NCBI RefSeq assembly: GCF_014635185.1
Contig: NZ_BMCM01000004.1
Location: 248,001-312,000 of the forward strand
DNA from: Microbacterium murale
GTDB lineage: Bacteria; Actinomycetota; Actinomycetes; Actinomycetales; Microbacteriaceae
Direction: 5' to 3'
DNA: 64,000 bases
Shown here: positions 41,221 through 59,821 of the stretch, piece after piece
Layout of the letters: each line of letters opens with the position of its first letter
Position numbering within the stretch: position 1 is the stretch's first letter
Position numbers and translations under genes: made by a program
Notes under the pieces: model-generated
Databases searched by the model: none
Told to the model about the DNA's origin: nothing
The model's input: the letters and a program-made list of their open reading frames with translations, nothing else

Positions 41221-41296
41221 TGGAGCCGACTACGGGATTCGAACCCGTGACATCCTGTTTACAAGACAGGTGCTCTACCAGCTGAGCTAAGTCGGC
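41221..41296 (-). tRNA. tRNA-Thr(TGT), rebuilt by the integrated element
   Basis: On the minus strand the cloverleaf starts GCCGACT and ends AGTCGGC, discriminator T and encoded CCA. The anticodon loop CTTGTAA carries TGT, reading ACA. Positions 41259-41296 (5' half to anticodon loop) belong to the 42-bp repeat that recurs at 57462-57503, so the 5' half and promoter now come from the element while the 3' half is original host sequence. Confidence 0.95.
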
Positions 41297-41300
41297 GAAC
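41259..41300. repeat. attL: 42-bp direct repeat
   Basis: It begins TTACAAGACAGG and ends GTCGGCGAAC, spanning the anticodon loop to just past the 5' end of tRNA-Thr. It is identical to 57462-57503. The integrase gene lies 72 bp inside the element. Confidence 0.95.
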
Positions 41301-41304: not shown

Positions 41305-41310
41305 AAATTA
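41305..41310 (-). promoter_or_regulatory. Element-derived -10 for tRNA-Thr
   Basis: On the minus strand TAATTT lies 8 nt before the tRNA 5' end, inside element DNA. It takes the place of the host TAAACT now stranded beside attR. No good -35 is seen. Confidence 0.45.
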
Positions 41311-41352
41311 CGCGGATTCTCTGAAGTCTGACGGTATCAGGTGGTACCCAAT

Positions 41353-41374
41353 CCCGCATAAACCCCGCACATTC
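41353..41374. repeat. Candidate integrase arm-type site (left)
   Basis: This 22-bp sequence, CCCGCATAA then ACCCCGCACATTC, matches 57336-57357 at 20 of 22 positions in the same orientation. It overlaps the integrase stop codon. Placement beside both ends fits arm-type binding sites of a tyrosine integrase. Confidence 0.6.
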
Positions 41375-42536
41375 AAACCTGCCGAACGTGCATAGCCAAG
41401 TCTAGAGCTTCTGCTGCCCTGCTACCGCCCACAGTCTTTGACATGTAGGTGCGCATCGTGACGTGCGGATCGGTGTGACCTAGGTACTCTGCGATGTCTC
41501 GCGCCGAGAGTCCCGCCTGATCCAACGCCGTCGCTACAGTCTTCCTGAAGCTGTGGAATGAGTACTCCCCCAGCTCGAGCCGCTCGCGTGCTTCCTGCCA
41601 ATCCGCAGACGTGTTGTTCCGATCGCGCCGTTTGCCGAGCGGCGTCGGGAACAGCGGCCCCTCCCCCAGCGGACGCGCCGCAAGCATGACGGCAACACTG
41701 GACGGCACAGTGAGGCGCCTTACCCCGGCATCCGTCTTCGACTTCCGCACGGTCACCACCGCGCCGATCGTGGGAATGCCGGCCGGCGCAGTAATCCCCA
41801 CGTCCGGTCCATCAAGGTCGATCGCTTCACTGATCCGTACGCCCGTACCTGCGATGAACTCAACCAGGTCAGCCATGTCCTGAATCCGCAATTGCTTGTC
41901 GCCGCTGACAGCCTCGAGAATGCCGGGGAGGTCGCCCAACGGGACCGGCTTCGCCCCAACACGCTTGCCCTCAATTGGTGCGAGATCACGCACCGGGTTA
42001 CGCTCCATCGCGTCCGACCGCACCGCAAGCCCCATGATGCCCGACAGGACGGCCCGCGTGTTCTTCGCTGTACCAGTGCCGGATTCCTCAACGATGACGT
42101 CCAAGAGCCGCTGAAGCCGTTCTGCAGTCACCTCGGAGATAGCGAGATCCCCGATCCTCGGATTGATCACCCGCTCGATGAGGTCGCGGTAACCCTCGAC
42201 CGTTCGCGGTGCCCGATTCGCCTTCGACGCTAGGAACCGGGCGCCCAGATCCTGCATCCGCGTCTCACGCTTCACCTCAGATCGGGTGCTCTCCTGAATA
42301 GACGTCAGCGCCTTCCTCAGAGCCGCTTCAGCCTTAGCGGCCGAGACATCGAACCGCTCGACCTGACGCAGCTTGCCGGATGGGAACCTGTAGCGCGTTC
42401 GAGCCCGCCAGTAGCCGTGCCTCTTCTCTGGCGTCTTGACGACCACGAGTCGTCGTCGCGATTCACCCTCGACATACTCGACCGCATCGACACTGATGCG
42501 CCCGTAACTACTGAGCGGGGTCCGGGGGCGGGGCAT
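41373..42536 (-). CDS. Tyrosine-type site-specific integrase
   Basis: This 387-aa recombinase has an N-terminal arm-binding part (KRHGYWRARTRYRFPSGK), a SAM-like core-binding domain and a catalytic domain. Catalytic residues visible are Arg in GTGVRISEAIDL, HSFRK (His-x-x-Arg), His in LGHTDPHVTMRTY and the nucleophilic Tyr of TYMSKT. ATG 42536 is chosen because AGGAGG lies 6 nt upstream; it overlaps the repressor gene end by 29 bp, so both are cotranscribed. It acts on the tRNA-Thr attachment site 72 bp downstream. Confidence 0.95.
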   Translation of the reverse strand: MPRPRTPLSSYGRISVDAVEYVEGESRRRLVVVKTPEKRHGYWRARTRYRFPSGKLRQVERFDVSAAKAEAALRKALTSIQESTRSEVKRETRMQDLGARFLASKANRAPRTVEGYRDLIERVINPRIGDLAISEVTAERLQRLLDVIVEESGTGTAKNTRAVLSGIMGLAVRSDAMERNPVRDLAPIEGKRVGAKPVPLGDLPGILEAVSGDKQLRIQDMADLVEFIAGTGVRISEAIDLDGPDVGITAPAGIPTIGAVVTVRKSKTDAGVRRLTVPSSVAVMLAARPLGEGPLFPTPLGKRRDRNNTSADWQEARERLELGEYSFHSFRKTVATALDQAGLSARDIAEYLGHTDPHVTMRTYMSKTVGGSRAAEALDLAMHVRQV

Positions 42537-43245
42537 CGTAGGCCTCCTCTCCGCTCGCGATTCGGTACAAGAGATTGCCATACTCCGAGAGCGTCTCGAA
42601 CGTGAGGTACTTCGGATTCAGTTGACGACACCACTTGATCACCGGGTCCGCCTCATCCACGGTCACCCCGCGCTCATCGAATCCTTTGAGGAAGTGTCTG
42701 CATTCGGTAAGTGCGACGATTGCCTGCCCCAGCAGAGCCTCGGGTGAATCTTGAACCGTCACGTTACCCGCATAGTCCGAGTGAAGGAACGCTGTCGCGA
42801 ACGTTACGTTTCGGAATTCTGCCAGCGCTCGATCGAACGAAGCGAACTCATCCAGCGCGTGTACGACTCGCGCGGAAGTCTCACTGCTACTCGCAGGCGT
42901 TCCGCTCCCCACCGCTTCGTGCCATGCCGCGAGCGTGTCGACTTCACCGCGAAGGACATTCGCCATGTTGCCACCATCCAAGACCGGCACAAGCAGAGCG
43001 ACGATCGGTACACCAAGCACCTTCGCGAACACCGCAAGCTCGGCAGCCGCTATGTTCTTCCTCTTGCCAGCGAACAGCGCTTGCATCGTGTTCGCCCGGA
43101 AAGATCCTGGAATCCCGACCATCCGGTCACACGCGTCCGCGAATTGATTGAGCGTCATGCCGGAGTGCTCCCGGATCGACGTTATGTTGCGGGCGATCGC
43201 CGCGGTGTAGCGCTTCTCCCAGTCGTCTTCTGTCATAGAAATCAT
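42508..43245 (-). CDS. XRE-type phage repressor-like regulator
   Basis: This 245-aa protein has an N-terminal helix-turn-helix (TSIREHSGMTLNQFADACDRM, NTMQALFAGKRKNIAAAELAVFAKVLGV) and a C-terminal region with no LexA-like protease motif that I can see. Its position upstream of integrase and divergent from the excisionase-like gene fits an immunity repressor for an integration-dependent or simple immunity circuit. GGGGG is close before ATG 43245; ATG 43236, with TAAGAT 7 nt upstream, is an alternative. Confidence 0.8.
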   Translation of the reverse strand: MISMTEDDWEKRYTAAIARNITSIREHSGMTLNQFADACDRMVGIPGSFRANTMQALFAGKRKNIAAAELAVFAKVLGVPIVALLVPVLDGGNMANVLRGEVDTLAAWHEAVGSGTPASSSETSARVVHALDEFASFDRALAEFRNVTFATAFLHSDYAGNVTVQDSPEALLGQAIVALTECRHFLKGFDERGVTVDEADPVIKWCRQLNPKYLTFETLSEYGNLLYRIASGEEAYDAPPPDPAQ

Positions 43246-43848: not shown

Positions 43849-43873
43849 TCCCAACCTGAGAGAAGGAAAAACT

Positions 43874-44083
43874 ATGCCAATTCAGACTATCGCACCGGCC
43901 ACCGACACTCACGACGGGCCGACCATCACGGAAGCAGTGATCTTCGCCGGTCGCCTCGGCGTCGATCTGAGCGACTTCATGACAGCCTGCGTACGCCTGA
44001 TCGGTGAGGCTCGCGACAGAACACCCCGCGAGCTTCGACGCGATCCGGAAGCAACGATCGAACTGATGGAGCGTGACGCGTGA
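43874..44083 (+). CDS. Uncharacterised element protein, 69 aa
   Basis: ATG 43874 follows AGAAGGAAAA by 3 nt. The 69-aa product (TITEAVIFAGRLGVDLSDFMTACVRLIGEAR) appears helical and acidic. No family is recognised. The next gene's GTG overlaps its stop. Confidence 0.55.
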   Translation: MPIQTIAPATDTHDGPTITEAVIFAGRLGVDLSDFMTACVRLIGEARDRTPRELRRDPEATIELMERDA

Positions 44084-44538: not shown

Positions 44539-44540
44539 GT

Positions 44541-44960
44541 GCTTCGAGGCCCGCACCCGATGGGGTCGGCCTCGAGCGTCTCCGCATTAGCGCGGAGGCG
44601 TCCCGCACGATCGACGCATGGTCGTGGCGGCTTGCTGACGGCTCACTAGGGCTCCATCAACTCCCCGATGCCCTGGCGACCCTGTTCACGATCGCATACG
44701 AGCAGGGGCGCGCATCTCGCGAGGACGAAGTGCGCGCCGCGAAGCTCGATGCCGACCGCCTCTGGTTGCGTTCTTTCGGACCGAAGGATCAGCAGGACTA
44801 TCTGCTGTCTCGCCTCGATCGAGCCGCGGAGATTGTCGCGGATACCGGGAACATCGAGCACCACATGGACGAGGCGTGGCGGCTCTATGTCGCATCACTC
44901 GACAACATTCGTGAGCCCATCACGATTCACAAGACAACACAGATGAAGGAGGTCGCATGA
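44541..44960 (+). pseudogene. Element ORF with no start codon (possible frameshift), about 139 aa
   Basis: One frame from 44541 reads as a natural protein (PAPDGVGLERLRISAEASRT, AWSWRLADGSLGLHQLPDAL, WLRSFGPKDQQDYLLSRLDR) to the stop at 44958-44960, yet no ATG or GTG opens it before an internal GTG at 44730. A GTG at 44539, directly after the previous stop, is one frame off; one missing base just after it would join the two. Starting at 44730 would give only 76 aa. It is probably a broken start or a sequence error. Confidence 0.55.
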
Positions 44961-46213: not shown

Positions 46214-46332
46214 GCGCTTGCCCAGACTGCAACGCCGAACTCCGGCTAGTCGAGATCCAGCCGCATGTACACGTCGCACAGATCTTCCATGACGACACAT
46301 GCCCGATGCTCCGGGCCATGGAGAAGCGATGA
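46210..46332 (+). CDS. Very small CxxC protein, 40 aa
   Basis: ATG 46210 overlaps the ATPase stop (ATGA). The 40-aa product begins MSACPDCNAEL and later has FHDDTCPML, giving a C-x2-C and His/Cys pair that could bind one zinc ion. Its stop overlaps the next start, so three small genes are coupled. Confidence 0.55.
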   Translation: MSACPDCNAELRLVEIQPHVHVAQIFHDDTCPMLRAMEKR

Positions 46333-46508
46333 TCCATCAGCCCGTGAACATCGCGCCAGCTCAATGCCCGACCTGTGACGCGTGGGTTCGCTGGACAAGA
46401 ACCGGCTCAGGCGCACACGTACGCCAGGAGCTACACGAAGACCGCTGCACCGTCCATCCGCGAATGCAACGAAACGACGCCGCACACGCGGCAGGAATGA
46501 GCACGTAA
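46329..46508 (+). CDS. Small zinc-finger-like element protein, 59 aa
   Basis: ATG 46329 overlaps the previous stop (ATGA). The product has CPTCDAWVRW, then HEDRCTVHPRM, a CxxC...H...C pattern resembling its neighbour's and suggesting a related fold. No named family is recognised. Confidence 0.55.
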   Translation: MIHQPVNIAPAQCPTCDAWVRWTRTGSGAHVRQELHEDRCTVHPRMQRNDAAHAAGMST

Positions 46509-46511
46509 CTG

Positions 46512-46688
46512 ATGTCCATTCGTAGCTGCATGATCTGCGACCACCCCGACTGCGAGAACGTCTACGACGCCGGGGAACGCACACACCATCGTGACCTCAC
46601 CGCACTGGCCCACTCGGAAGGTTGGTCATCCACCTTCGCGAACGGCGGCTGGACGAACACCTGCACAGATCACGAGGGGGCCGCGTGA
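46512..46688 (+). CDS. Small Cys/His-rich element protein, 58 aa
   Basis: ATG 46512 opens 58 codons (SIRSCMICDHPDCENVYDAG, GERTHHRDLTALAHSEGW, GWTNTCTDHEGAA) with CxxC, CxxxxC-like and His residues. It is the third Cys/His-rich small gene in a row. No ribosome site is strong; translation may be coupled to the gene ending 3 bp upstream. Confidence 0.5.
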   Translation: MSIRSCMICDHPDCENVYDAGERTHHRDLTALAHSEGWSSTFANGGWTNTCTDHEGAA

Positions 46689-46812
46689 GCGAACCCATTG
46701 CAGACACCGCAGAACGACGGAAGGAGAAACCATGAGCGGATCTAGTACGCAGAAGCGAAAGCCCATAAATTATCGGCTCATGACTGGATGGGTCCGGACG
46801 ATGCCGATTGAT

Positions 46813-47382
46813 CTAGCGCCCGAACAACGCATTGAGACGATCGAAAGCCTCAGGATCCAGAGCAACCTGCAGGTACAGCTGCTCCCTCTTGAGCGACTCA
46901 ACTTTCTCGACGCCTGTATCAGCGGCGCGCGCAAGGATCGCCTTCTGCATGAGGGTAGTGAGCGGCTGTCCTATAGCGTCGCGGAAGTTGAAACCGAGGA
47001 GTTGCAGAACATTCGCGGTTTCGACGGACAGCAGCGGGCGAAGCGCGTTGGCGAGCTTTTCGAACTCCTCGGCTTTCTCCGAGCCCATCCCATCCGCAAT
47101 CTTCTGAAGCGTCGGCACAACGGTGTCAGCGATGTATTGAAGGTCGCCAGGAGCCAGACGCTGCGACACCAACTCCGCCTGATAGGCCTGTGCGATCCGC
47201 GTGATCTCGTTCTTGTCGTCCACAAGTTCGGACACGAGCTGCTCGAGCCCGGAGATTATCTCCTCTTGCTTGCCCGACTTGCGGAGAGCGCGCACCTTAT
47301 CTGTCACGAGTGCCGCCCCGTTACGGGCGGTTGCACCCGCGAGCTGCGCGCCGAGACTCACAAATTCCGGAGGCACGTCCAT
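46813..47382 (-). CDS. Uncharacterised helical protein on the opposite strand, 189 aa
   Basis: This 189-aa protein (MDVPPEFVSLGAQLAGATAR, SGLEQLVSELVDDKNEITRI, SVETANVLQLLGFNFRDAI) is largely alpha-helical with coiled-coil character and no membrane segment. AAAGGA lies about 7 nt before ATG 47382. It is opposite to all surrounding early genes and has its own divergent promoter region at 47383-47422, like a phage moron expressed in the integrated state. No family is recognised. The 124 nt at 46689-46812 hold only a 16-codon GTG frame. Confidence 0.65.
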   Translation of the reverse strand: MDVPPEFVSLGAQLAGATARNGAALVTDKVRALRKSGKQEEIISGLEQLVSELVDDKNEITRIAQAYQAELVSQRLAPGDLQYIADTVVPTLQKIADGMGSEKAEEFEKLANALRPLLSVETANVLQLLGFNFRDAIGQPLTTLMQKAILARAADTGVEKVESLKREQLYLQVALDPEAFDRLNALFGR

Positions 47383-47422
47383 GTGATGAGTCCTTTCAAT
47401 CGTTATGAGAGGAGTCAACACC

Positions 47423-47809
47423 ATGACGCGGCGTGTCGAGAATGCAGTCATCCTGACCGGAGCAGACGCCGCACTGCTCTACACCTCCGCGCACCTCCGC
47501 GAACTGCGCATCGCCGCACGCGGAAAGTCCGACCGCCTGTACACCCTCCTCACCGACATCACCTCCGCAGCCTTCGCACACCATGCTTCCCTCGACGGAA
47601 CAAAACCCCAGGACGTGACGGAAAAACACGAGACTGAAAGTGCAGGAATCGTAACAGTCCGACAAGTCGCAAGAGAGGCCGGGATCACACCAAGAGCAGT
47701 CCGAAACCACATAGGACTAGGACTACTCGAAGCAACACAACAAGGCCGCATCTGGATCATCACAGCCCACGCGGCAGAACAATACATCGCCGGCCGAAAG
47801 GCCGCGTAA
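47423..47809 (+). CDS. MerR-like helix-turn-helix protein, 128 aa
   Basis: The C-terminal half, IVTVRQVAREAGITPRAVRNHI then GLLEATQQGRIWIITAHAAEQYI, is a MerR/HTH_17-type DNA-binding domain. The N-terminal half (ENAVILTGADAALLYTSAHLREL) is helical and may mediate dimerisation. ATG 47423 follows GAGAGGAG. It is the last regulator-like gene before the structural part and might control late expression. Confidence 0.65.
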   Translation: MTRRVENAVILTGADAALLYTSAHLRELRIAARGKSDRLYTLLTDITSAAFAHHASLDGTKPQDVTEKHETESAGIVTVRQVAREAGITPRAVRNHIGLGLLEATQQGRIWIITAHAAEQYIAGRKAA

Positions 47810-47822
47810 GAGAGGAAACCCG

Positions 47823-48443
47823 ATGGCACTCACTGAACTCGGACTGAAGATCGACACAATCCGTGACCGCATTCAACCCATAAGGAACACGCTCACCTCG
47901 GCTATCGAGAGCACCCGATCCAACGGGCGCATCACCCAGCCGACGAAACGCCAAGAGATTGCACAGCACTACCTCACCGCCAAGAAGAACCTCGAGCTGC
48001 TTCTCGAAGACGAACGCCGCGCCACACAGGCCAAACGTTCAGAACTCGAACGCGCCATCTTCGGGAGAAAGAACAACGGCGCCACCGAAATCATGGCGTA
48101 CCGTGACGCACAGGAGCGTGCCCTTCAGTTCGGACCCGATGACGAGGAACAAGCATCAGAGCTGTTCCACATTGCAGAGATCAACGACGACGAATCTCTC
48201 GTGTCGGCGCTACTTGCACGATCGTTGCATTTCCAGTGGGAAGCGATCATCGCCAAGCACGCAGCCGCATACCCAGAACGACGCGAACACCTCACCGACC
48301 TCGCTGACATTGACCGCTGGACAACGCAGCACGAAGACGACGGGTTCAACGGCTACCAAGGTATCTACTCGATCCCAGTACCGAAGGAAGTCAGCGGGTT
48401 CATCAACGACGCAGGCATTCAGAAGATCGCCCAGGGCGACTAG
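47823..48443 (+). CDS. Uncharacterised element protein, 206 aa
   Basis: This 206-aa helical, charged protein (LTELGLKIDTIRDRIQPIRN, HYLTAKKNLELLLEDERRAT, VKEVSGFI-like end region PVPKEVSGFINDAGIQ) has no membrane segment. GAGAGGAAA precedes ATG 47823. Codon use resembles the early genes, not the tail genes that follow. No family is recognised; it stands where head genes would begin in a complete phage. Confidence 0.6.
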   Translation: MALTELGLKIDTIRDRIQPIRNTLTSAIESTRSNGRITQPTKRQEIAQHYLTAKKNLELLLEDERRATQAKRSELERAIFGRKNNGATEIMAYRDAQERALQFGPDDEEQASELFHIAEINDDESLVSALLARSLHFQWEAIIAKHAAAYPERREHLTDLADIDRWTTQHEDDGFNGYQGIYSIPVPKEVSGFINDAGIQKIAQGD

Positions 48444-48452
48444 CCAGGCCAG

Positions 48453-48482
48453 CCCGTCCGCATGACGAACCCCACGGACGGG
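48453..48482 (+). terminator. Hairpin after the 206-aa gene
   Basis: CCCGTCCG (48453-48460) and CGGACGGG (48475-48482) are exact arms with a 14-nt loop, just after the stop at 48443. There is no T-run directly behind; TTTTTTT occurs at 48540-48546. Confidence 0.6.
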
Positions 48483-48720
48483 TCACCCCGGCCCTCTGTC
48501 ACATCGGTCTCCGGGTTTACGAACGATCTCTCCCCGACCTTTTTTTCCACGGGGACATGGCGGCAGTAGGGGTGGCTCCCACCCCTAAAGGGGGGTCATG
48601 CCGGTCGGTCTCCTGGGCGGCGACCTTTCTCTCCCCAGTGAAAAACCGAGTGCATTTTGGGGTTCTACGTGCCTCGCGGGCCACTCACCAATTCGAGTTT
48701 CAGACAGTGAAGGAAAGACT
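48483..48720. other. Gene-poor junction between early genes and tail genes
   Basis: This 238-nt stretch holds no convincing gene. A short frame from 48557 (MAAVGVAPTPKGG) soon becomes unnatural. Base composition changes across it, from GC-rich early genes to T-rich tail genes. In a complete siphophage the terminase, portal, capsid and major tail genes would lie here, so this marks the place of a missing module. Confidence 0.5.
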
Positions 48721-49194
48721 ATGGCTATTGATATTGATGCGTTGATTGCAGAGCAGAAGAAGTACTTGGAGTCGATTGAGCCGGTTGATGTACCGGTGAT
48801 GTTGGGTGGCGTGCTGGTGACGGTGCGTATCCCGTTCGTCATGCCGCCCGTTTTTACGGAGCTGACGGATAAGTACCCGGCTGTGCCTGGTGTGGCGGCT
48901 GACATGTCGTTGTGGTTCTCGCTGACGAACGTGACGCGGAACTATCCGGACATCTCGCTGATTGTTGGCGACGATGAGGACGACCTGCTGGTCGTGCGTG
49001 ACAAGGCCGTGTTCTACAGGTGGACGGAGATCTACGATTCGCTGTCCGATGAGGACAAGTCGAACCTGCGGGCTGCGGTGTGGGGAATGCACATCTGGGA
49101 ACCGGCGCAGAAGGCGAAGGCGGCTGCGAAGGCTCTGCCGAAGGATCTGCCGCTTAGTGATCTCGTTGACGCTGCTGTGGCGGGGGTGGTCTGA
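48721..49194 (+). CDS. Probable tail assembly chaperone-position protein, 157 aa
   Basis: This 157-aa protein (AIDIDALIAEQKKYLESIEP, VPVMLGGVLVTVRIPFVMP, SDEDKSNLRAAVWGMHIWEP) lies directly before the tape measure gene, the conserved place of tail assembly chaperones. I see no slippery heptamer and no second frame, so the usual frameshifted long form is missing. GAAGGAAAG precedes ATG 48721. Its stop overlaps the tape measure start. Confidence 0.65.
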   Translation: MAIDIDALIAEQKKYLESIEPVDVPVMLGGVLVTVRIPFVMPPVFTELTDKYPAVPGVAADMSLWFSLTNVTRNYPDISLIVGDDEDDLLVVRDKAVFYRWTEIYDSLSDEDKSNLRAAVWGMHIWEPAQKAKAAAKALPKDLPLSDLVDAAVAGVV

Positions 49195-51944
49195 TGGCTG
49201 AGCGTGTTACGCGAGTACGCCTTGAGGCGAACATTGCCGGTTTCGCGAAGGCAATGGAAGAGGCGGCGAAGAAAACTGCGGCGGTGGGTACGGAGGGTGA
49301 GAAGCTGGCGCAGCAGCGTGAAGCGTTCAACCAGCTCGGTACTGCGGGCCTGGCGATGGGCACTCTGCTTGCGACGGGTGTCGGGTTCGCTGTGAAGCGG
49401 TTCGCGGATTTCGATGCGGCGATGAGTTCTGTGCAGGCGGCAACGCATGAAACTGCGGGGAACATGGACCTGCTTCGCCAGGCCGCTCTGGATGCCGGTG
49501 AGTCCACCGTGTTCAGTGCGACGGAGGCTGCCGGGGCGATTGAGGAACTGGCGAAAGCGGGCGTCTCAACGGCTGACATTCTCGGGGGCGGTCTGGCTGG
49601 GTCTTTGGATCTTGCGGCTGCTGGTGAGCTTCAGGTGGCCGATGCGGCGGGTATCGCGGCGACGGCACTCAAGCAGTTCAACTTGCAGGGCGATGACATG
49701 TCACATGTCGCGGATCTTCTGGCTGCTGGTGCAGGTAAGGCGATGGGTGACGTGTCGGATCTGTCGCAGGCTCTCAATCAAGCGGGTCTGGTCGCGAACC
49801 AGACGGGCCTGAGCATCGAGGAGACAACAGCGGGACTGGCAGCGTTCGCTGAGCAGGGTCTGATCGGTTCTGATGCGGGTACGTCGTTCAAGTCGATGTT
49901 GCAGCGGATGGTTCCGACGTCGGGTGAGGCTGCGGCGAAAATGAAGGAACTGGGGATCTCGGCGTACGACGCGTCGGGGAACTTTGTGGGGCTGGCTGAG
50001 TTCGCCGGCAACCTTCAGGGCGCGTTGAGGGATCTGTCACCTGAGCAGCGCAATGCGGCAATGGCGACGATCTTCGGGTCGGATGCGGTGCGCGCGGCTG
50101 GGGTGATCTACCAGCAGGGCGAGGAGGGGATTCGGGACTGGATCTCGGCCGTCGATGACCAGGGGTACGCGTCGAAGACCGCATCCACACGGCTGGACAA
50201 CCTCAAGGGCGACATCGAGGCACTGGGCGGTGCATTCGAGACAGCGCTGATAGATACGGGCGGTGCAGCGAATGACACGCTGCGGACCATGGCTCAGGCG
50301 CTCACAGGGCTGATCGGGATGTACAACGATCTTCCGGCGCCGGTTCAGGCTGGGATTCTCGCTGTGGGTGGCGCTACGGCTGCTGTGGCGCTCTCGGGCG
50401 GTACGGCGCTGGTCGCTATCCCGAAGTGGTTGCAGTTCAAGGCAACGGTGGAAGCGTCGAGCCTGTCGATGAAGGGCATTTCGCTGACGGCGGGGATTGC
50501 CGGTCTCGCACTGGGTGGACTGTTCGCGGTCGTGGGCACGCTTGCTGCGAAGCATCAGCAGGCTGAGCAAATGGCGCAGGCATACGCTGACGCACTCGAG
50601 AGTGGGGCGGATGCGGCTCGGAATGTCGCTGCGGATGCTGCTACGGCTGAGCAGTCGTTCCTGTGGCTCTCTCGTGGCTCTGCGGCTGATGCTGCGGAGA
50701 AGCTGGGTCTGAGTCTTGATCTTGTGGGTGATGCTGCGACGGGTAGCAGTGCCGCGCTCACGGAGGTCAATGCGGCCATTGAGAAGGCGTTTGGGCCGGC
50801 GAACACGAAGGCCGCTAAGGATCTCACTCAGCAGGAGAACGAAGCGGCTGCGGCGGCTCAGGAGCTCAAGGGCTTCATCAACGAGCAGACGGCCGCGTAT
50901 GAGAACGGGACGAAGAAGCTCGAGCAGAAGAACGCGATGACGGCCGATTCTGTCGAGGCATCCGGTACGGCTGCTGAGTCGTACATTCAAGAAGCGGATG
51001 CGGTTGCTGATCTGAACTCGGAACTCACCGACCTGATCGACAGGATCAATGAGGCGAACGGGATCGCACAGGACGCGGTGACGACGAACGCGCGATACCA
51101 GGACGCTCTGGCTGGTCTGTCTGAGCAGGTTGAGAGCAACGGGACATCGCTGGATGAGAACACGGCTTCTGGTTCTGCGAATGCCGCGGCGATGGCTGAC
51201 CTGGCCGGGGCTGCTCAGACTGCGGCTCAGGCGCAGCTTGAGCAGGATCTCGCCACGATGTCGGCTGACGAAGCGGCGATCAAGTATTCGGGCACTCTCG
51301 CAGCGCAGAAGCAGGCGTTCATCGATTCTGCGGTGTCTGCCGGCTACAACGCCGACGAGGTGAAAGCGCTCGCTGATCGCATCTTCCAGATGCCGACTGA
51401 GAAGGAGTTCGAGGCGATCGTAGACACCGCGACCGCGCAGGCAAACCTGGACAACTGGATCTACACGAACTCGGGTCGCCAGATACGCGTGCAGGTCATC
51501 GCGGATGGTGCGGCAATGCAGATGGGCTCGTACACGGTCGAACCGGGCATGGCGTCCGGTGGCCCCGTGTATGGGCCAGGACCGAAGGGCAAGGACTCCG
51601 AGCTGCGGATGCTGGCACCAGGTGAGCACGTCCTGACGGCTGCGGAGGTTGATGCGGCGGGCGGGCACGGGGCGATCCAGAAGTGGCGGTCGGAGATGAT
51701 GTCTGGCAGCCCGTACGCCCTCAGATCGGAACCCGAGACTCGTTGGGCGGCAGCAGGACCGACGTACACGGCAGCAACACCCGCACCTCAGATCGTCTAC
51801 GCCGGCATCCAGCCGGGAGACTCCCTCAGCCTGGTCGTAAACGGGCAGGAGTTCACCGCGTTCGTTGACACCCGCGCGGAAGGAAGGGTGCACGCGCACG
51901 ACGAAGCCGCACAACGCACAACGCGTGGCGGCGTACGACCCTAA
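49194..51944 (+). CDS. Phage tail tape measure protein
   Basis: The 916-aa protein has a coiled N-terminus, a TP901/PhageMin_Tail domain (about residues 85-330: STVFSATEAAGAIEELAKAG, LSQALNQAGLVANQTGLSIE, TIFGSDAVRAAGVIYQQG), a hydrophobic stretch (AGILAVGGATAAVALSGGTA, SLTAGIAGLALGGLFAVVG) and long Ala-rich helices. The end MASGGPVYGPGPKGKDSELR and PGEHVLTAAEVDAAGG is typical of siphophage tape measures. At about 0.15 nm per residue it would set a tail of about 135 nm. T-ending codons are more frequent than in host genes. Confidence 0.93.
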   Translation: MAERVTRVRLEANIAGFAKAMEEAAKKTAAVGTEGEKLAQQREAFNQLGTAGLAMGTLLATGVGFAVKRFADFDAAMSSVQAATHETAGNMDLLRQAALDAGESTVFSATEAAGAIEELAKAGVSTADILGGGLAGSLDLAAAGELQVADAAGIAATALKQFNLQGDDMSHVADLLAAGAGKAMGDVSDLSQALNQAGLVANQTGLSIEETTAGLAAFAEQGLIGSDAGTSFKSMLQRMVPTSGEAAAKMKELGISAYDASGNFVGLAEFAGNLQGALRDLSPEQRNAAMATIFGSDAVRAAGVIYQQGEEGIRDWISAVDDQGYASKTASTRLDNLKGDIEALGGAFETALIDTGGAANDTLRTMAQALTGLIGMYNDLPAPVQAGILAVGGATAAVALSGGTALVAIPKWLQFKATVEASSLSMKGISLTAGIAGLALGGLFAVVGTLAAKHQQAEQMAQAYADALESGADAARNVAADAATAEQSFLWLSRGSAADAAEKLGLSLDLVGDAATGSSAALTEVNAAIEKAFGPANTKAAKDLTQQENEAAAAAQELKGFINEQTAAYENGTKKLEQKNAMTADSVEASGTAAESYIQEADAVADLNSELTDLIDRINEANGIAQDAVTTNARYQDALAGLSEQVESNGTSLDENTASGSANAAAMADLAGAAQTAAQAQLEQDLATMSADEAAIKYSGTLAAQKQAFIDSAVSAGYNADEVKALADRIFQMPTEKEFEAIVDTATAQANLDNWIYTNSGRQIRVQVIADGAAMQMGSYTVEPGMASGGPVYGPGPKGKDSELRMLAPGEHVLTAAEVDAAGGHGAIQKWRSEMMSGSPYALRSEPETRWAAAGPTYTAATPAPQIVYAGIQPGDSLSLVVNGQEFTAFVDTRAEGRVHAHDEAAQRTTRGGVRP

Positions 51945-51957
51945 CGAAAGAAGTGAA

Positions 51958-52134
51958 ATGACTGAATCGACGTTCGAGCGAGACCCGAACTTTCCGCGGC
52001 TGATTGTGCCAACTCGAGATTCTGTGAGGTCCGCCCCGGGGCTGTACACAACTGTTGCGTTGACCGCACCCGAACCCGGGCTGTACGCGTTTGAGGACGC
52101 GGATCGAGACAACAATGGAGGAATCAATGACTAA
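51958..52134 (+). CDS. Small protein between tape measure and tail spike, 58 aa
   Basis: ATG 51958, preceded by GAAAGAAG, opens 58 codons (TESTFERDPNFPRLIVPTRD, GLYTTVALTAPEPGLYAFED). It overlaps the spike gene start by 8 bp. No family is recognised; the place fits a minor tail or spike-attachment protein. Confidence 0.5.
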   Translation: MTESTFERDPNFPRLIVPTRDSVRSAPGLYTTVALTAPEPGLYAFEDADRDNNGGIND

Positions 52135-53773
52135 TCGTCTAGTAGCAGTAGATGATGCAGACTACCGTCTGCCCGAACCCGTGTTGGGCGCCCTTGCGTC
52201 CGACATGATTGACGAGGGTAACACGCTCGGCGCCCAGCTAAGCACCACGTTCGCGCGAGGCGTCAGCGTCGAATCGTTCGGCGCAAAGGGTGACGGGGTA
52301 ACCGACGACACTGCGGCAGTACAAGCCGCTATAGACAGCGGCGAGTCGGTTTACTTCCCGCCTGGGACATACGTCGTTTCAGGGCTGACCGTCCGTTCGG
52401 GCATGCGGCTGTACGGTTCTTCGCGTTCATCGGACGTGACGGGCGCGGGGCGCTCCCGGCTCCGCACGCTCTCCGGAACCATGTTCCTCTCCCCGGCGTA
52501 CACGTGGGGTGTCGTCTGTCAAGACCTCACGTTTGATTCATTCACTGGCGGGGGCCACATTTTCACGGGCAAGTATTCACAGAGCAAGTTCGACAGTTGT
52601 GCCTTCACTCAGTACAACGACGGATTTTCGGCCTTCGATATTGTCGGATGGATTGACGTTCTCTCGGTGAACTGCTCGTACACGCACACTCTCACGGCGA
52701 CCGTTCCGACGTTCAAGGGTGTCACTTCTACGGGTGAACTGGCGCAGTCCACGTTCACTTCTTGTCGCTTCACGCACACCGGCAACTACGGGATCTGGCT
52801 TGAAGGGCAGAACGGCTCCATCCCTATCAGTTTTGCGATCCGCGACGTGAACTTCGAGATTCCTGTTGGCGGTGCGGTGAAACTGCTGTCGTGTCGGAAC
52901 GTTGTGATCGAGAACTGTGGCCTTTGGGACTTCCATGATGGTGGGGCAACCCGCGACCTGGTATATATAGGCAAATCGGCTACGGTTGGCGCGGAGTCAA
53001 ATTCGATCACCGTTGAGAACCTTATCCGTGACGCCTCAGACGCGCCAGAAGCAGGGGTGGTCGATATCCGTGTGGCACCAGCATCGGCCACCAACGTCAA
53101 TGTCATTGAGTGCCGTCACCAAACCTCGGGACGGCTGGCTGTAGATATGGGCAGCGTTACGGGGCGCGTGACAGGTGGCAGGGTGACTGTCACTAACGGC
53201 GGTCTCACCACGAACAACGCGGCACCGTTTCCGGGGCGACGATTGGGGGCACGCCTGCCCCTGGCCTGCTATCCGGCCGCAATGACGTACGGCGTGTCGG
53301 CCGTGAGTATGCTTCCGGACGCATGGCGGTTCATGCCACTGACGTTGGACCGACCTATCGCGCTGTCTGGACTTGCGGTCATACTCGGGACGGCTGCGGC
53401 TTCCGGCACGGCGGCGATGAGGTTCGGCCTATGGTCGATTGACTCGACGGGTCGCCCGTCTACTTTGGTGATCGACTTTGGGGCGTTGGCAACACTGGAC
53501 CTGACGGGTGCGACTGCGGAGCGAACGATGAGTTTCGCCACGCAGACCATTGCGGCCGGGGACTACTTCGTCGGCTGCGCATGGTCGGGCACGGCAACGA
53601 CGCATCCATCTTTGGTCGGGTTCGCTGGCACGCACCCATCGATTTCGAGCAATGCGGCAAGCACAACAACGTCGGCATACACGCAGGCTGTTTCGGGTGC
53701 GACAACACCATCGGCGCCGTCGACAGCGTTGGCTCCTGCTGCTGGGATTGCAGTGTGGGGGATCAATGCCTAG
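52127..53773 (+). CDS. Tail spike with pectate-lyase-like beta-helix
   Basis: The 548-aa protein has the classic start of a right-handed beta-helix depolymerase, SFGAKGDGVTDDTAAVQAAI near residue 46, then SVYFPPGTYVVSGLTV, followed by about 250 residues of short Ser/Thr/Asn/Val-rich coils. A different C-terminal domain (residues about 370-548) looks like a beta-sandwich for binding or trimerisation. Such spikes bind and may cleave surface polysaccharide. GGAGGAATCA precedes ATG 52127. It gives the host-range function of the element or its parent phage. Confidence 0.85.
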   Translation: MTNRLVAVDDADYRLPEPVLGALASDMIDEGNTLGAQLSTTFARGVSVESFGAKGDGVTDDTAAVQAAIDSGESVYFPPGTYVVSGLTVRSGMRLYGSSRSSDVTGAGRSRLRTLSGTMFLSPAYTWGVVCQDLTFDSFTGGGHIFTGKYSQSKFDSCAFTQYNDGFSAFDIVGWIDVLSVNCSYTHTLTATVPTFKGVTSTGELAQSTFTSCRFTHTGNYGIWLEGQNGSIPISFAIRDVNFEIPVGGAVKLLSCRNVVIENCGLWDFHDGGATRDLVYIGKSATVGAESNSITVENLIRDASDAPEAGVVDIRVAPASATNVNVIECRHQTSGRLAVDMGSVTGRVTGGRVTVTNGGLTTNNAAPFPGRRLGARLPLACYPAAMTYGVSAVSMLPDAWRFMPLTLDRPIALSGLAVILGTAAASGTAAMRFGLWSIDSTGRPSTLVIDFGALATLDLTGATAERTMSFATQTIAAGDYFVGCAWSGTATTHPSLVGFAGTHPSISSNAASTTTSAYTQAVSGATTPSAPSTALAPAAGIAVWGINA

Positions 53774-53778
53774 TCACG

Positions 53779-53812
53779 GGTGTACTTGATCCATTCTCGG
53801 ATCAAGTACACC
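53779..53812 (+). terminator. Long perfect inverted repeat after the tail spike gene
   Basis: GGTGTACTTGATCC (53779-53792) and GGATCAAGTACACC (53799-53812) are perfect 14-bp arms with a 6-nt loop, 5 bp after the spike stop. It is a strong hairpin without a U-run and most likely ends the tail transcript. Confidence 0.8.
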
Positions 53813-54076
53813 CCGCAGGCGATCCTGATCCCCGGATATCAAAACCGGGGGACGTGCGTCGGAAACACTTTGGCGCGCTCAACCCGCGTGGCTGCTCGCG
53901 TCAATGAGTACGGTTTGCGCACGGGTGCTGCCGGGGCGGTTGCGAACACATCTGATGCGGGTTCGATGATCGTTCGCCCCGATGTTACCGGCTCGCGCGG
54001 TGGCAACGTGGCGCTCGGGTCTTTGATAGCGCAATTGGCCGCGAACTACATCGTGAAGGACAGCACGACCGCCTGA
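53780..54076 (+). CDS. Possible residual tail protein fragment, up to 98 aa
   Basis: A frame from GTG 53780 ends TAA-free until 54074 and reads plausibly in its later part (NTLARSTRVAARVNEYGLRT, VTGSRGGNVALGSLIAQLAA). The start lies inside the hairpin arm, so a true start may be missing, and the product may be a remnant of a larger minor tail gene. The following 54077-54395 contains only short frames, one reading LTLGINDAKVAIYLANKARS, also remnant-like. Confidence 0.35.
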   Translation: MYLIHSRIKYTPQAILIPGYQNRGTCVGNTLARSTRVAARVNEYGLRTGAAGAVANTSDAGSMIVRPDVTGSRGGNVALGSLIAQLAANYIVKDSTTA

Positions 54077-54395
54077 CCGCGGTTGCTGTCCCGCTGGCGC
54101 CTAACGCCGCAAAGCCGCCGGACAGCAACTAGCTCCGCTACGCACGCCGAACGAAGGCGCCCCTATTCAACCTGTTACGGGTCGAGTGGGGGCGCTTTCG
54201 TCGTACCCTCCTGGCATCCCGTGAGCAGCGCCGCAGGCGTGGCCGGTCGCGGGCCGCGATCTGACTCTCGGAATCAACGATGCGAAGGTCGCGATCTATC
54301 TGGCGAACAAGGCGCGCTCGGTAACGCCGCTACTGATCCGGTCCTCGCGCAGTTCCCGAACTTGATATACGCCGCAATGGCTCTACTGTGTTCGC

Positions 54396-54620
54396 ATGGA
54401 ACCAACCACCGAGTCACCAATAGCGAAGTACCTGACAAGCACGGAGCTAGCGCGCGTGCTCCAATGTTCCGTTGACAAGGTATATCGCATGGCCCGCAAC
54501 CGCGAGATCCCGTCTGTCCGCGTTGGTCGATCGTGGCGCTTCGACCTCGATGCGGTCAAGGACGAGTTGAGCAAGCCCGCCGATTCGTGGGCGCTACCAA
54601 GTCGGCAGAGGAGACTCTAG
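54396..54620 (+). CDS. Second HTH_17 excisionase-like protein, 74 aa
   Basis: The 74-aa protein (YLTSTELARVLQCSVDKVYR, MARNREIPSVRVGRSWRFDL) is a textbook helix-turn-helix 17 domain of the excisionase/plasmid regulator type. TACTGT lies exactly 6 nt before ATG 54396, so it is likely leaderless and expressed on its own. It may regulate the cargo genes to its right or act in excision with the first such protein. Confidence 0.8.
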   Translation: MEPTTESPIAKYLTSTELARVLQCSVDKVYRMARNREIPSVRVGRSWRFDLDAVKDELSKPADSWALPSRQRRL

Positions 54621-54799
54621 GTCGTCTCGAGAGATGACGGGCTCGACGCCGATTAGTTGTAGGAGCGGTGTACGTGCCAGCCGTCTTCGGCTTTGTACAC
54701 GTCGAACACGAACGAGTCGCCGCCATCGTTGGTCCCTTGGAAACGCCACCCGTACAGCCCGTGGTGTGGCTCGAGTGGTGCTGTCCAGGAGGTGCCGGT

Positions 54800-55148
54800 G
54801 TGGGATCGAGTAAGAGGCTTGCAGCCCTGTATGACATGTACGCGGATGAGAAGGCGCTTGCACGGATCGCGAAGACTGCTGGGCCGTTGCAGACGCTCAG
54901 TTCGGAGGAGCTTGAGTTGGAGCGGATGCCGGTGACGGTCTATCCAAAACCGCAGGGTGTGAGGGCGTGGGTGAGGTTCGGGCCGCAACATGTCCGTGTG
55001 GGGGCGTTGCTTATGCGCACCACAGAGACGGCCGCGGGCATCGAGTTCACCCATCGGGGAGAAAACCTACCGGTGCTGGGTGTGGGGCAACGCGGTCACG
55101 ATGGTCGCGGACGGTCGTATGACTACTGAGGCAACGGCTTCTCGATGA
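54800..55148 (+). pseudogene. Frameshifted small protein of unknown function
   Basis: GTG 54800, with AGGAGG 7 nt upstream, starts RLAALYDMYADEKALARIAK, ERMPVTVYPKPQGVRAWVRF and TAAGIEFTHRGE. After this the frame gives LPVLGVGQRGHD, while the next frame gives TYRCWVWGNAVTMVADGR, a far more natural end, to a stop at 55146-55148. Dropping one A from the four-A run near 55062-55065 joins them. The overlapping minus-strand frame is less convincing. Either a pseudogene or a sequence error. Confidence 0.6.
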
Positions 55149-55998
55149 TTTCGCGGATCTCTGCGGCGATCTGGTCGGATTTCTTGGACCGGATTCGGGA
55201 GAGTTGATCCAGCGCCGGCAACACGGCGAGAACTAGTTCGACATGTTGCTGCCGTAGCGCCAGGTAATTCTCCCTGAGACCCGGCTGATCCTGATCAATC
55301 CACTGCTTCAATATCTGTCGAGCATCTTTCCCGAGCTTCACCCAGCGCCGCGCCCTCAAGGCGTACCGGTCATCGTTGAGAGACGAGTCGAGGTACCAGG
55401 GTGGGCTCAGGTCGCTCGCGAGTTCCTGCTCTCGAATCTCCCGCTCGCGCTCGTCTATGTACTCGATGATCGGCTGTGGGTTACGTCGGCACAGTGCAAT
55501 CGCGACTTGTTTCATGCTCGGCCACGGCAGATACGTAGCGTCGCTGTCCCGAATAGTCGCCGAATGTGAAACAAGCTCCGCCGCGGTCATCCCTGTCGCG
55601 TCTGCGAGGCCGTCCAGATCAAATACTTCGAGCGTCGCTCTGCCGCCATGTTGAGGGAAAGCAATCGACACCGATAGGACCTTCGTTATGGCGATTTCAG
55701 CAGCTTCAGTAAAAGCGTCATCCTCCGGCGCGTGAGAGTAGAGATCATCCCATCGGGTGTTCGTGGCGAAGTATTCCTCGCGGAGTCCCCACGGGACGCG
55801 ACAACGCCCGATCGGCACCCACTCAGCCTTGCCCTTCATCTCACGGTCGAGATGTTGGACGCGAACGCGTTGGGCGTCCTCTGGAACAACCATCAGCGCT
55901 ACCCGATACCACCTCTTCGTGGGCGGCTCGTAGTACAACCAATCGTCCCCCTCCTCGGCGGGGACCGGTTTGCGTTCGTAAACGAATCCACCGTCCAT
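55123..55998 (-). CDS. Uncharacterised cargo protein, 291 aa
   Basis: The protein (FVYERKPVPAEEGDDWLYYE, KRWYRVALMVVPEDAQRVRV, SDLSPPWYLDSSLNDDRYAL, then a helical charged C-terminus ending AAEIREIIEKPLPQ) has no membrane segment or motif that I recognise. TAGGGT lies 6 nt before ATG 55998, so it has its own leaderless promoter. It is in the minus-strand cargo group with AbiF, next to attR, a usual place for defence or fitness genes. Its end overlaps the pseudogene at 54800-55148 tail to tail. Confidence 0.65.
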   Translation of the reverse strand: MDGGFVYERKPVPAEEGDDWLYYEPPTKRWYRVALMVVPEDAQRVRVQHLDREMKGKAEWVPIGRCRVPWGLREEYFATNTRWDDLYSHAPEDDAFTEAAEIAITKVLSVSIAFPQHGGRATLEVFDLDGLADATGMTAAELVSHSATIRDSDATYLPWPSMKQVAIALCRRNPQPIIEYIDEREREIREQELASDLSPPWYLDSSLNDDRYALRARRWVKLGKDARQILKQWIDQDQPGLRENYLALRQQHVELVLAVLPALDQLSRIRSKKSDQIAAEIREIIEKPLPQ

Positions 55999-56070
55999 CA
56001 CAGCACCCTACGACGGTCCCCGGCTACCCTCTACCGCTGTGACAAAAGCCGCGCTGAACGTGGTGCCCGT

Positions 56071-56232
56071 CTAGCCGCCGTGAAGCCCCGGCAGGTCGTC
56101 TACGCTCGCGGGCCGCTTGATGTCGGGATATGGCTCCACGCGAGCGCACAGAGGGCATTCCAGCCCCGTCTCACCATCACGCAGCAGAACGCCGCAGTCT
56201 GGGCAGGTCAGCGGGTCGGGTATGCCGTCCAT
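56071..56232 (-). CDS. Small zinc-ribbon protein, 53 aa
   Basis: ATG 56232 opens 53 codons: MDGIPDPLTCPDCGVLLRDG, ETGLECPLCARVEPYPDIKR and so on. Two CPxC pairs 14 residues apart make a compact zinc ribbon. CAGACT lies 6 nt upstream of the ATG, close to the leaderless -10 pattern. It sits between AbiF and the 291-aa gene and may be a partner of either. Confidence 0.55.
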   Translation of the reverse strand: MDGIPDPLTCPDCGVLLRDGETGLECPLCARVEPYPDIKRPASVDDLPGLHGG

Positions 56233-56302
56233 CTAGATAGTCTGACACCCGACGAGTGATCAACGCGTAGATAGAGGTCGAAAAAGGCGGGACGATCTGT
56301 AC

Positions 56303-57181
56303 CTACTTGGTACTTGGCGAGATTAGGCCGTCCCAGTAGATGCCGCTCCGTGGCACTAGGGTCGAAACCTCAGCAGAGAATCCGTTGTGCCCCCTGACTC
56401 GATTCACGAAATCGACCACCACAGAGATCACTCCCCAAGGCGTTTTGTCGTAGTTCATCCGAATCAGCGACTTCTCCACGAGAAACGGGAGGATCTTCGG
56501 GACGTCCTGTGCGATCGTTCGATTCCATATCCGCCCGTGATGCGCGCACACGTTGCGGAAGACTGAGACGGCACGAAGGTTCGTACTGAAGTCGTTCGAC
56601 GAGGTGTAGCCGAAGCGCTTTGCGATGAAGTCGCGCTGAGCCTGGTCGGCCAAAAGCCCATACATCCGCGAGAGAACTCCGAAGGAGAGTGCCTCAGTGG
56701 CTACCCAGAGAGGCACCGCCGTTCCCTTATCTCTGTGGTGCCTCACGTGACGCTCTTTGGAGCGGTCAATGTCGCTGTGTATGTCCCTCAGTAGCGCGTT
56801 CGTGAGCGAGTTACCCTTCGCGTCGTAGGCTGCGTCGTACGTTTTCGGGTCCAGATACTCATCGCCGCTGCCGCCCGCTTTACAAAGCTTTGCGACGAGC
56901 ACCGCCCGCGCAGCAACCTCGACTTCAGCGAGCCCCTCCATGAGGAGATTCCTCAAGGCTGCGTCGGAGTGATAGCAGTCCATGATCGACGCGATGTTTG
57001 CTCCCGGCTCGAAGCGGTTTACCCCCTGGGACGGCTGGACCTGGAAGTACCGCCAATAACCCGAGAGTCGAAAGTACCCAACGCTAGCTAGAGCGCGGTG
57101 AAGCGCAGGAGGAGTGTCCGCGAGCCCGAGGAGCGTGATCTTCGCGTGCTGATCGGCTATCGACAATGAGGGTTTGCCCAT
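56303..57181 (-). CDS. AbiF/Abi_2-family HEPN abortive-infection protein
   Basis: This 292-aa protein matches Abi_2 along its length: MGKPSLSIADQHAKITLLGL, ASVGYFRLSGYWRYFQ, VPLWVATEALSFGVLSRMYG, and the HEPN RNase motif R209-N-V-C-A-H214 within VFRNVCAHHGRIWN. HEPN RNases of this kind cut RNA during phage infection and act as toxins. Published work proposes that AbiF pairs with a small RNA antitoxin and is ancestral to Cas13. ATG 57181 has TATGCT 7 nt upstream, so it is leaderless, starting right after a strong terminator. The start matches the family N-terminus. Confidence 0.9.
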   Translation of the reverse strand: MGKPSLSIADQHAKITLLGLADTPPALHRALASVGYFRLSGYWRYFQVQPSQGVNRFEPGANIASIMDCYHSDAALRNLLMEGLAEVEVAARAVLVAKLCKAGGSGDEYLDPKTYDAAYDAKGNSLTNALLRDIHSDIDRSKERHVRHHRDKGTAVPLWVATEALSFGVLSRMYGLLADQAQRDFIAKRFGYTSSNDFSTNLRAVSVFRNVCAHHGRIWNRTIAQDVPKILPFLVEKSLIRMNYDKTPWGVISVVVDFVNRVRGHNGFSAEVSTLVPRSGIYWDGLISPSTK

Positions 57182-57199
57182 GGCTGGAAGCATAGGTGC

Positions 57200-57258
57200 A
57201 AAAAAAGGCCCCCCGGCGAGGTGTTGCGCGAGGCGCCACCTCCCGGAGGGAACTGTTA
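57200..57258 (-). ncRNA. Candidate AbiF-associated small RNA ending in an intrinsic terminator
   Basis: On the minus strand, TAGGAT (57269-57264) could start a transcript near 57258. It runs into a 14-bp hairpin (arms 57250-57237 and 57223-57209, one bulged base at 57217, 13-nt loop) followed by GG-CC and seven T at 57206-57200. This is a textbook intrinsic terminator that ends 19 nt before the AbiF ATG. The result would be an RNA of about 58 nt directly upstream of AbiF, the reported position of the AbiF RNA antitoxin. Transcription is inferred. Confidence 0.45.
57209..57250 (-). terminator. Strong Rho-independent terminator upstream of AbiF
   Basis: CCCTCCGGGAGGTG pairs with CACCTC-g-CCGGGGGG, then U7. 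It isolates AbiF from upstream transcription, so AbiF must use its own promoter (TATGCT at 57194-57189). Confidence 0.9.
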
Positions 57259-57296
57259 CAGGTATCCTAACACGATCGCGCCCGTCGGCAGGGTCA

Positions 57297-57320
57297 CGTC
57301 GTGGACTTCGAGTCACGACG
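57297..57320. repeat. Hairpin-forming inverted repeat upstream of the candidate small RNA
   Basis: CGTCGTG (57297-57303) and CACGACG (57314-57320) are exact arms; GACT/AGTC inside extends the stem around a 3-nt loop with one bulge. It could be part of a longer AbiF-linked RNA if transcription starts further upstream. Confidence 0.5.
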
Positions 57321-57335
57321 CGTTGATAGCCATAC

Positions 57336-57357
57336 CCCGCATTTACCCCGCACATTC
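57336..57357. repeat. Candidate integrase arm-type site (right)
   Basis: This 22-bp sequence matches 41353-41374 at 20 of 22 positions in direct orientation. A related block, ATACCCCGCGATAACCCCTG, lies at 57424-57443 nearer the core. Confidence 0.6.
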
Positions 57358-57461
57358 TCCGATCAGCAACGATCGCGAGTGATACTTCGTGAGCAAATGG
57401 GAGTAAGGTGACGGGGAGATTTGATACCCCGCGATAACCCCTGATTTCGGCGTGAACCGAA

Positions 57462-57503
57462 TTACAAGACAGGTGCTCTACCAGCTGAGCTAAGTCGGCG
57501 AAC
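57462..57503. repeat. attR: 42-bp direct repeat with orphaned 5' half of tRNA-Thr
   Basis: It is identical to 41259-41300. The sequence inside the element no longer completes the anticodon stem, so only the tRNA 5' half remains. Just outside, TAAACT at 57510-57515 (minus strand) is the likely original tRNA -10, now driving a truncated transcript into the element. Confidence 0.93.
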
Positions 57504-58498: not shown

Positions 58499-58714
58499 CG
58501 TTCCTCTTGAAAGTCATGGTGGGGACGGGCTCCCCGGTGTCCTCTTCACAAGCAGGACCACAATCGATGTTAACGAGTCAGGCTGGGAAATACCCAGGTG
58601 CGGCGGCTCCGTGCCATACTTGACTCGGCCCGATGGCGGGCCAGGGTGGCTCATACCCACCGCATCCATCACAACGGATCGTCCGGCACGTACCTGCCGG
58701 TGAAGGAGAAAACA

Positions 58715-59821
<1,107 letters not shown>

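Follow-up and report, generated by a model that had tools for sequence, protein, structure and literature searches.

AbiF and the Integrated Element that Carries It

The window, by which we mean the whole 64,000-nucleotide stretch of Microbacterium murale DNA under analysis, carries on its reverse strand an intact open reading frame for a 292-aa AbiF/Abi_2 HEPN protein (Table 1). This assignment is based on the Abi_2 domain (PF07751, E = 1.2e-43, 150 bits against a Pfam cut-off of 25.6), on the AbiD model of PADLOC (7.8e-44), and on the PDB, in which the sole phmmer match up to E 0.1 is 8vz6 (1.9e-19), the structure of PbAbiF with its ncRNA according to PMC12737573. A first-pass annotation had read a complete R-x4-H HEPN motif in this protein, and that reading is borne out: the catalytic motif R209-N-V-C-A-H214 is unbroken, and R209, N210, C212, A213 and H214 are invariant in alignment A3 (23 rows), V211 being the exception. 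By analogy with its homologues the protein is probably an RNase toxin, and it is the only Abi_2 match in the host genome. Translation might also begin at ATG 57193, which lies within a TATGCT sequence, or at 57355; the starts of homologues favour 57181.

The gene lies in a stretch of about 16.2 kb (41259-57503) flanked by a 42-bp repeat that consists of GTTC and the first 38 nt of tRNA-Thr, with the intact tRNA-Thr located at the integrase end. Among the relatives with loci, a thioredoxin-like gene followed by an intact tRNA-Thr is present in 10 of 11, and the remaining locus (L174) has no intact tRNA there because a related element is inserted. This element, in the eleventh relative (G094), is of about the same size as that of the window and encodes an integrase 63% identical to it; by eye it contains a tape-measure-like protein and a different gene at the position of abiF. 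Blastn matched the DNA past the tRNA in one of four relatives, so that support for the empty site is weak on its outer side; the tRNA order is clear. Hence att repeats at both ends, an integrase and an uninterrupted site in relatives uphold the earlier view that abiF is cargo of a tRNA-integrated, phage-like element. The proteins of the window element include the integrase, an AAA/primase-like protein, a tape measure and a tail-spike-like protein; several others gave no match, and the matches obtained include no capsid, portal or terminase. The existence of two related elements of about equal size suggests a stable satellite-like element as opposed to a decayed prophage. In the G094 element (L311, about 1-2700), other ORFs, one of them of 265 aa, are found beside the att site, perhaps marking a cargo slot. 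Elsewhere in the window, Rfam matches comprise an msiK RNA at 58657-58715 (+) and a guanidine-III riboswitch at 15507-15574 (+).

Table 1. Features of the abiF locus and of the ends of the element, in window coordinates.
Feature	Position	Strand	Basis
AbiF / Abi_2 HEPN protein, putative RNase toxin, 292 aa	56303..57181	-	PF07751, PADLOC AbiD, PDB 8vz6
HEPN motif R-N-V-C-A-H, residues 209-214	56540..56557	-	Invariant except V211 in 23 aligned rows
Candidate leaderless -10 TATGCT of abiF	57189..57194	-	Spacing 6-7 nt in 9/20 class H/B genes; not significant over 98
Predicted abiF-type antitoxin RNA, about 58 nt, class H	57200..57257	-	Likeness to L095, L096, L099; covariation; start inferred from -10
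Terminator U7 tract	57200..57206	-	Sequence
RNA hairpin, 14 bp + one bulged G + 4-bp inner stem; doubles as intrinsic terminator	57209..57250	-	Fold
RNA -10 box TAGGAT	57264..57269	-	TANNNT at 9-15 nt in 85/97 AbiF loci with hairpin
Second hairpin, probably outside the RNA	57297..57320	-	Fold z -3.8; upstream of -10
42-bp att repeat, remnant of the 5' half of tRNA-Thr	57462..57503	-	Identical to 41259-41300
att repeat at integrase end, overlaps intact tRNA-Thr	41259..41300	-	Repeat comparison
tRNA-Thr(TGT), intact copy	41221..41296	-	ARAGORN, Rfam
Tyrosine integrase of element	41373..42581	-	PF00589 2.1e-14, phrog_1 3.3e-46

A Predicted RNA Ends Upstream of abiF

Read toward abiF, a TAGGAT box, six bases, A57257, a hairpin, CC, a U7 tract, 18 bases and the ATG follow one another. 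The arms of the hairpin pair CCCUCCGG with CCGGGGGG and GAGGUG with CACCUC, giving 14 bp with one bulged G, around an inner stem of GCGC/GCGC. For the predicted RNA of 58 nt the computed folding energy is -32.3 kcal/mol (z = -4.0), a value that none of 200 shuffles reaches. A TTGACA-like -35 element is absent before TAGGAT, and a generic promoter and terminator scan returned no site at the window RNA, the bulged stem lying outside the rules of that scan. The first-pass annotation had taken the -10 box, the 14-bp hairpin and the U7 tract to yield an RNA of about 58 nt, and this stands as a predicted RNA, the three signals commonly occurring together ahead of AbiF genes and seldom ahead of other ORFs. 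A longer RNA that takes in the second hairpin had been considered as well; it is disfavoured because the usual position of the -10 box in relatives sets the start near 57257, downstream of that hairpin. The second hairpin is a strong inverted repeat and may be a regulator site or an att-arm site.

Predicted Hairpin RNAs Precede Most AbiF Genes Examined

For comparison, 152 loci were taken, of which 149 yielded AbiF by tblastn and 124 were retained after removal of near-duplicates, short proteins and loci with less than 140 nt upstream. Within the 140 nt upstream of the start, 97 of the 124 non-redundant AbiF genes have a hairpin that folds at -12 kcal/mol or lower and is accompanied by a T-tract, as compared with 24/212 other long ORFs of the same loci and 17/124 dinucleotide shuffles. 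Within the window's genus (window excluded) it is present at 36 of 39 loci. The automatic test gave no strong hairpin at 27/124 loci, some of which, uncounted, show one by eye that was overlooked owing to a misplaced start or a weak T-tract. At 85 of the 97 loci the hairpin is preceded by a TANNNT box whose end lies 9-15 nt away, in most cases 12-14 nt and in the window 13 nt, versus 2-7 of 97 in equal intervals farther upstream and 4 of the 20 hairpins that precede control ORFs. Transcription of such an RNA thus probably begins some 6-7 nt ahead of the stem and stops at a terminator of its own.

The hairpins are also kept where their surroundings are not. Over 96 loci, mean alignment scores of the hairpin and of the flank (DNA of equal length, 40 nt farther upstream) are 0.80 vs -0.01 at a protein distance of 0-1 and 0.70 vs -0.04 at a distance of 1-2. 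Likeness of hairpins declines modestly with AbiF distance (rho = -0.20), a value as low being reached in 0/500 permutations and, for the flank control, in 420/500; past a protein distance of 3 the hairpins are scarcely similar (scores 0.02-0.09). Judged by sequence, the large majority of the examined AbiF genes thus have a predicted structured RNA with its own promoter and terminator directly upstream, in many sequence classes, and the window RNA is an AbiF-associated RNA in this broad sense. The conservation of the upstream region among AbiF homologues, on which the first-pass annotation had staked its proposal, is accordingly found among near relatives.

The Window RNA Belongs to a Class Outside RF03085

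The Rfam abiF RNA, RF03085, does not match the window, either at the gathering score or up to E 5. The window RNA shares with RF03085 its place before AbiF and a hairpin with a terminator tail, but the AAGCCUCUC...GCUCAAA core is missing. Its nearest AbiF proteins, all from the same family, are those of L095 (55% identity), L096 (52%) and L099 (52% over its first part); a quick tree groups the window with L095 and L096 at an SH-aLRT support of 100, L099 being too short to enter. Common to these four loci is an RNA that we call class H, AAYAGUUCCCYYCGGGR...GRGGGGCCUUUU. It should be noted that the AbiF of L099 has an internal deletion that spares the HEPN motif and lies beside a complete class H RNA; this locus was nevertheless kept in the class.

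Class H shows covariation: the 12 named pairs are standard in all four rows and five pairs have changes on both sides, a signal equalled on three measures by 1 of 500 shuffles and lost when the strands are slid, with the reservation that four sequences enter and that the structure was named from those very sequences. The count of further pair types falls within the shuffle range (116/500). The RNAs of three relatives fold with z-scores of -2.2 (L095), -3.0 (L096) and -0.25 (L002, no better than shuffles), and stability by itself would therefore not prove an RNA class.

A covariance model (R1) trained on class H alone was searched against 45 chosen sources. Beyond its own four sequences it finds L002/L097 (one sequence, class B; 5.9e-5) and, weakly, the RF03085 locus L043 (E 0.01), and 18 of its 19 matches up to E 10, its own four included, are located within about 75 nt of the chosen AbiF start. 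These matches suggest that class H is related to the abiF RNA, though diverged from it and outside RF03085 as Rfam defines it. By eye, a CAAA element on the 3' side that is common in class A and B RNAs is missing from class H, so the contact with AbiF may differ. Of 398 genomes of the family, 13 contain R1 matches up to E 1. Six of the matches score below 1e-9, and four of these are the training sequences. The remaining two class H RNAs, L157 and L158, represent one locus of another genus, where nearby AbiF matches are at chance level only, and the genome of L157 (G682) encodes an AbiF of another class elsewhere (L108). The neighbours of L157/L158 appear by eye to be a gene of RelE type and the 3' portion of a glycosidase-like gene.

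When 15 RNA classes are placed on the AbiF tree, 17 label changes are required, compared with a mean of 73.7 and a minimum of 66 in 500 shuffles; these labels were assigned by pattern after the sequences and the tree had been seen, for 102 of 123 tree rows (21 dropped), and the hairpin and flank alignment scores over 96 loci are the automatic counterpart. As read from these labels, RNA classes follow AbiF clades.

AbiF is encoded by 44/367 genomes of the genus, 66/398 of the family and 92/396 of the order (the last with an alignment query). At E 0.1 and with stricter filters, RF03085 is detected in 13 of these 367 genomes of the genus, in 8 cases above the cut-off, and in just 10 of the 44 genus genomes that carry AbiF. 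AbiF RNAs are thus not new to the window's genus, and the pair appears from its sequence to be of a known defence kind with an RNA type that is unmatched by Rfam. One RF03085 RNA of a same-genus genome (L312, 6528-6563 (-), the same as L074) has no AbiF match and is located in what looks by eye like a phage-like region.

These comparisons bear on the simplest reading of the hairpin, namely that it is a mere intrinsic terminator insulating abiF and that no trans-acting RNA exists. A strong hairpin with U7, placed between the tRNA promoter of the host and a gene that may encode a toxin, is what insulation would call for. However, a terminator needs neither the near-fixed promoter box that distinguishes AbiF hairpins (85/97) from those of control ORFs (4/20), nor conservation beyond that of the flanks, nor covariation, and we regard this reading as very improbable. 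The interpretation of the RNA as an antitoxin, put forward in the first-pass annotation, instead gains support from the 97/124 hairpins, the box, the covariation among four sequences and the classes that follow AbiF clades.

Expression of abiF

The TATGCT hexamer 7 nt ahead of the ATG had been interpreted as a leaderless promoter. A simple search found no Shine-Dalgarno sequence before the window abiF. The leaderless signature does not reach significance when 98 actinobacterial AbiF genes are taken together (20/98 vs 15/120, p = 0.14). Among the genes of classes H and B, a subset picked after looking and with some starts probably misplaced, 9 of 20 have a spacing of 6-7 nt, against 13/120 control ORFs (p = 0.0007); the nine include each of the three class H genes placed on the tree. 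We retain the leaderless promoter as a moderately supported candidate. As an alternative route, abiF may be expressed by read-through from the RNA promoter, as described for C. difficile (PMC12373285), in which case a leaderless promoter may be unneeded.

Read-through also underlies the suggestion that the RNA is a cis attenuator only, with stress read-through making AbiF and no neutralisation of the protein by the RNA. According to PMC12373285, the terminator of RCd22, the RNA upstream of the C. difficile abiF, lowers abiF expression, no second promoter is predicted there, and the leader of AbiD1 is structured. The same source reports that RCd22 also acts in trans by binding the protein, and in the window, as in its class, the terminator is followed by a candidate second promoter; attenuation as the sole role therefore seems to us quite unlikely, and we return to the antitoxin interpretation.

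A Probable RNA Antitoxin and AbiF Toxin Pair

In our judgement, held with good confidence, the locus encodes a type III-like toxin-antitoxin and abortive-infection pair that consists of an RNA antitoxin and the AbiF toxin. The sequence contributes to this view a gene with its motif, a predicted RNA with promoter and terminator, their co-inheritance, and a mobile element. In published AbiF systems the ncRNA is described as a protein-binding antitoxin (PMC12373285; review PMC12737573), and it has been proposed that Cas13 descends from AbiF and that guide RNAs arose from the AbiF RNA (PMC12165695, PMC12737573). By analogy with RCd22-AbiFCd and PbAbiF-ncRNA, the RNA of the window pair most likely binds an RNase toxin and silences it.

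The AbiFCd/RCd22 pair of C. difficile phi027, as described in PMC12373285, likewise comprises an Abi_2 HEPN toxin carried as prophage cargo and a hairpin ncRNA directly upstream with its own promoter and terminator. RCd22, however, is about 100-132 nt in length and has two RF03085 motifs, whereas the window RNA is a single hairpin of another class and about 58 nt; moreover, AbiFCd is read through from the RCd22 promoter, in contrast to the candidate separate leaderless promoter of the window. PbAbiF, whose complex with its ncRNA (8vz6; Zilberzwige-Tal et al. 2025) is the homologue detected at 1.9e-19, has the same R-x4-H motif and, per the review PMC12737573, a single structured ncRNA per protein. 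Its source is a Prevotellaceae bacterium, and the Prevotellaceae loci L010 and L012, compared here in place of the PbAbiF ncRNA itself, have a CCCACGCUUCCC...CAGCGCACC core that is missing in the window. A single-stranded bulge of the PbAbiF ncRNA is reported to inhibit the RNase (PMC12737573), whereas the predicted fold of the window hairpin has as bulges one G and one AA and nothing else.

Under the toxin-antitoxin model, the hairpin RNA would be transcribed from its own promoter and stop at its own terminator hairpin. As we infer from the homologues, it would then bind AbiF, a HEPN RNase that is presumably homodimeric when active, and keep it inactive. The same hairpin may shield abiF from upstream transcription, including that from the host tRNA-Thr promoter, which would now read into the element. 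AbiF would be made at a low level, either from the leaderless promoter just downstream, presumed to be weak, or by read-through. Should host transcription or RNA stability collapse, for which infection by another phage or loss of the element are our presumed triggers, the RNA pool would drop, AbiF would be freed to cut cellular RNA, and growth would stop.

The same biochemistry could have been selected as addiction that stabilises the 16-kb element and not as phage defence. The pair is situated at an att end of a small integrated element, the related G094 element has another gene at that place, and the C. difficile AbiF is likewise prophage-borne (PMC12373285), all of which would suit addiction. 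On the other hand, Abi_2 genes outside prophages are reported to sit in defence-enriched surroundings (PMC12373285), lactococcal AbiD/F give phage resistance (cited in PMC12373285), and phage abiF RNAs without AbiF may point to an arms race. Addiction as the selected role is consequently a rather unlikely option in our view, with defence by the RNA-AbiF pair being preferred.

Free-Standing abiF RNAs on Phages

The class H RNA pattern was not found in the viral_contigs set, and the DNA of the window RNA gives partial matches only to named phages (best E 0.2). With the window protein as query a single AbiF relative was detected in viral_contigs (L038, 32% identity), and with a three-row alignment as query none. 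Two patterns for the RF03085 core, by comparison, match at least 120 and 8 stretches of viral_contigs. Among the matches listed, an outer stem of at least 5 bp is present in 77 of 126 usable stretches, where about 23 would be expected from shuffled flanks. Of these 77, also among the matches listed, one lies within 2.5 kb of an Abi ORF, 62 are followed by 1.2 kb or more of sequence in which no Abi ORF occurs, and 14 have less sequence; the 62 AbiF-less stretches amount to 52 distinct cases. No Abi_2 was found in 40 whole viral records drawn from the 52, which are linear and many of them probably fragments. All 12 viral RNAs that were picked score over the abiF cut-off of Rfam. Blastn with one such RNA matches 74 named phage records, some weakly; eight named records were inspected, seven of them from this blastn set and one from another search. 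Of the eight, seven are over the Rfam cut-off and Arthrobacter phage Mimi is not, and Abi_2 was found in 0/8. The loci concerned are L183-L310 (viral_contigs) and L314-L321, the phages Redno2, Acj61, CGphi29, PZL-Ah8, S-SZBM1, Mimi, Lolly9 and RHEph21. One such RNA, of cyanophage S-CREM1, has been published as an sRNA (PMC9964418).

Among the matches listed, a T-tract follows the stem in 17 of the 52 cases and a TANNNT box occupies the expected stretch in 19/52, versus 9/52 in a control stretch, so that by these signs most viral copies do not appear to be stand-alone transcription units. Viral abiF RNAs are found within 500 nt of a tRNA gene in 18 of the 52 cases, among the matches listed, against 3.9 expected.

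We tentatively propose, as a possibility somewhat short of an even chance, that AbiF and RNA classes (15 labelled) are matched as lock and key, that phages answer with abiF RNAs acting as decoy antitoxins, that the window pair is the host-side half of this contest, and that L157/L158 reflect the same strategy or a trace of it. The copies adjacent to tRNA genes would then look as if spare tRNAs and a decoy RNA were supplied together against a tRNA-cutting toxin. The decoy proposal is made less likely by the fact that most viral copies are without their own promoter box and T-tract, and the plain reading is a role in the processing or termination of tRNA-array transcripts. In the portions of the literature on RF03085, on abiF RNA and phage, and on RNA mimics that were accessible to us, no decoy proposal for phage abiF RNAs was found; the Cell 2025 paper may discuss one.

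If phage abiF RNAs are decoys, phage-host warfare over RNA antitoxins would become directly testable. In addition, the many RNA classes with their AbiF partners would provide cognate and non-cognate combinations, already at hand, with which to study how the protein chooses its RNA.
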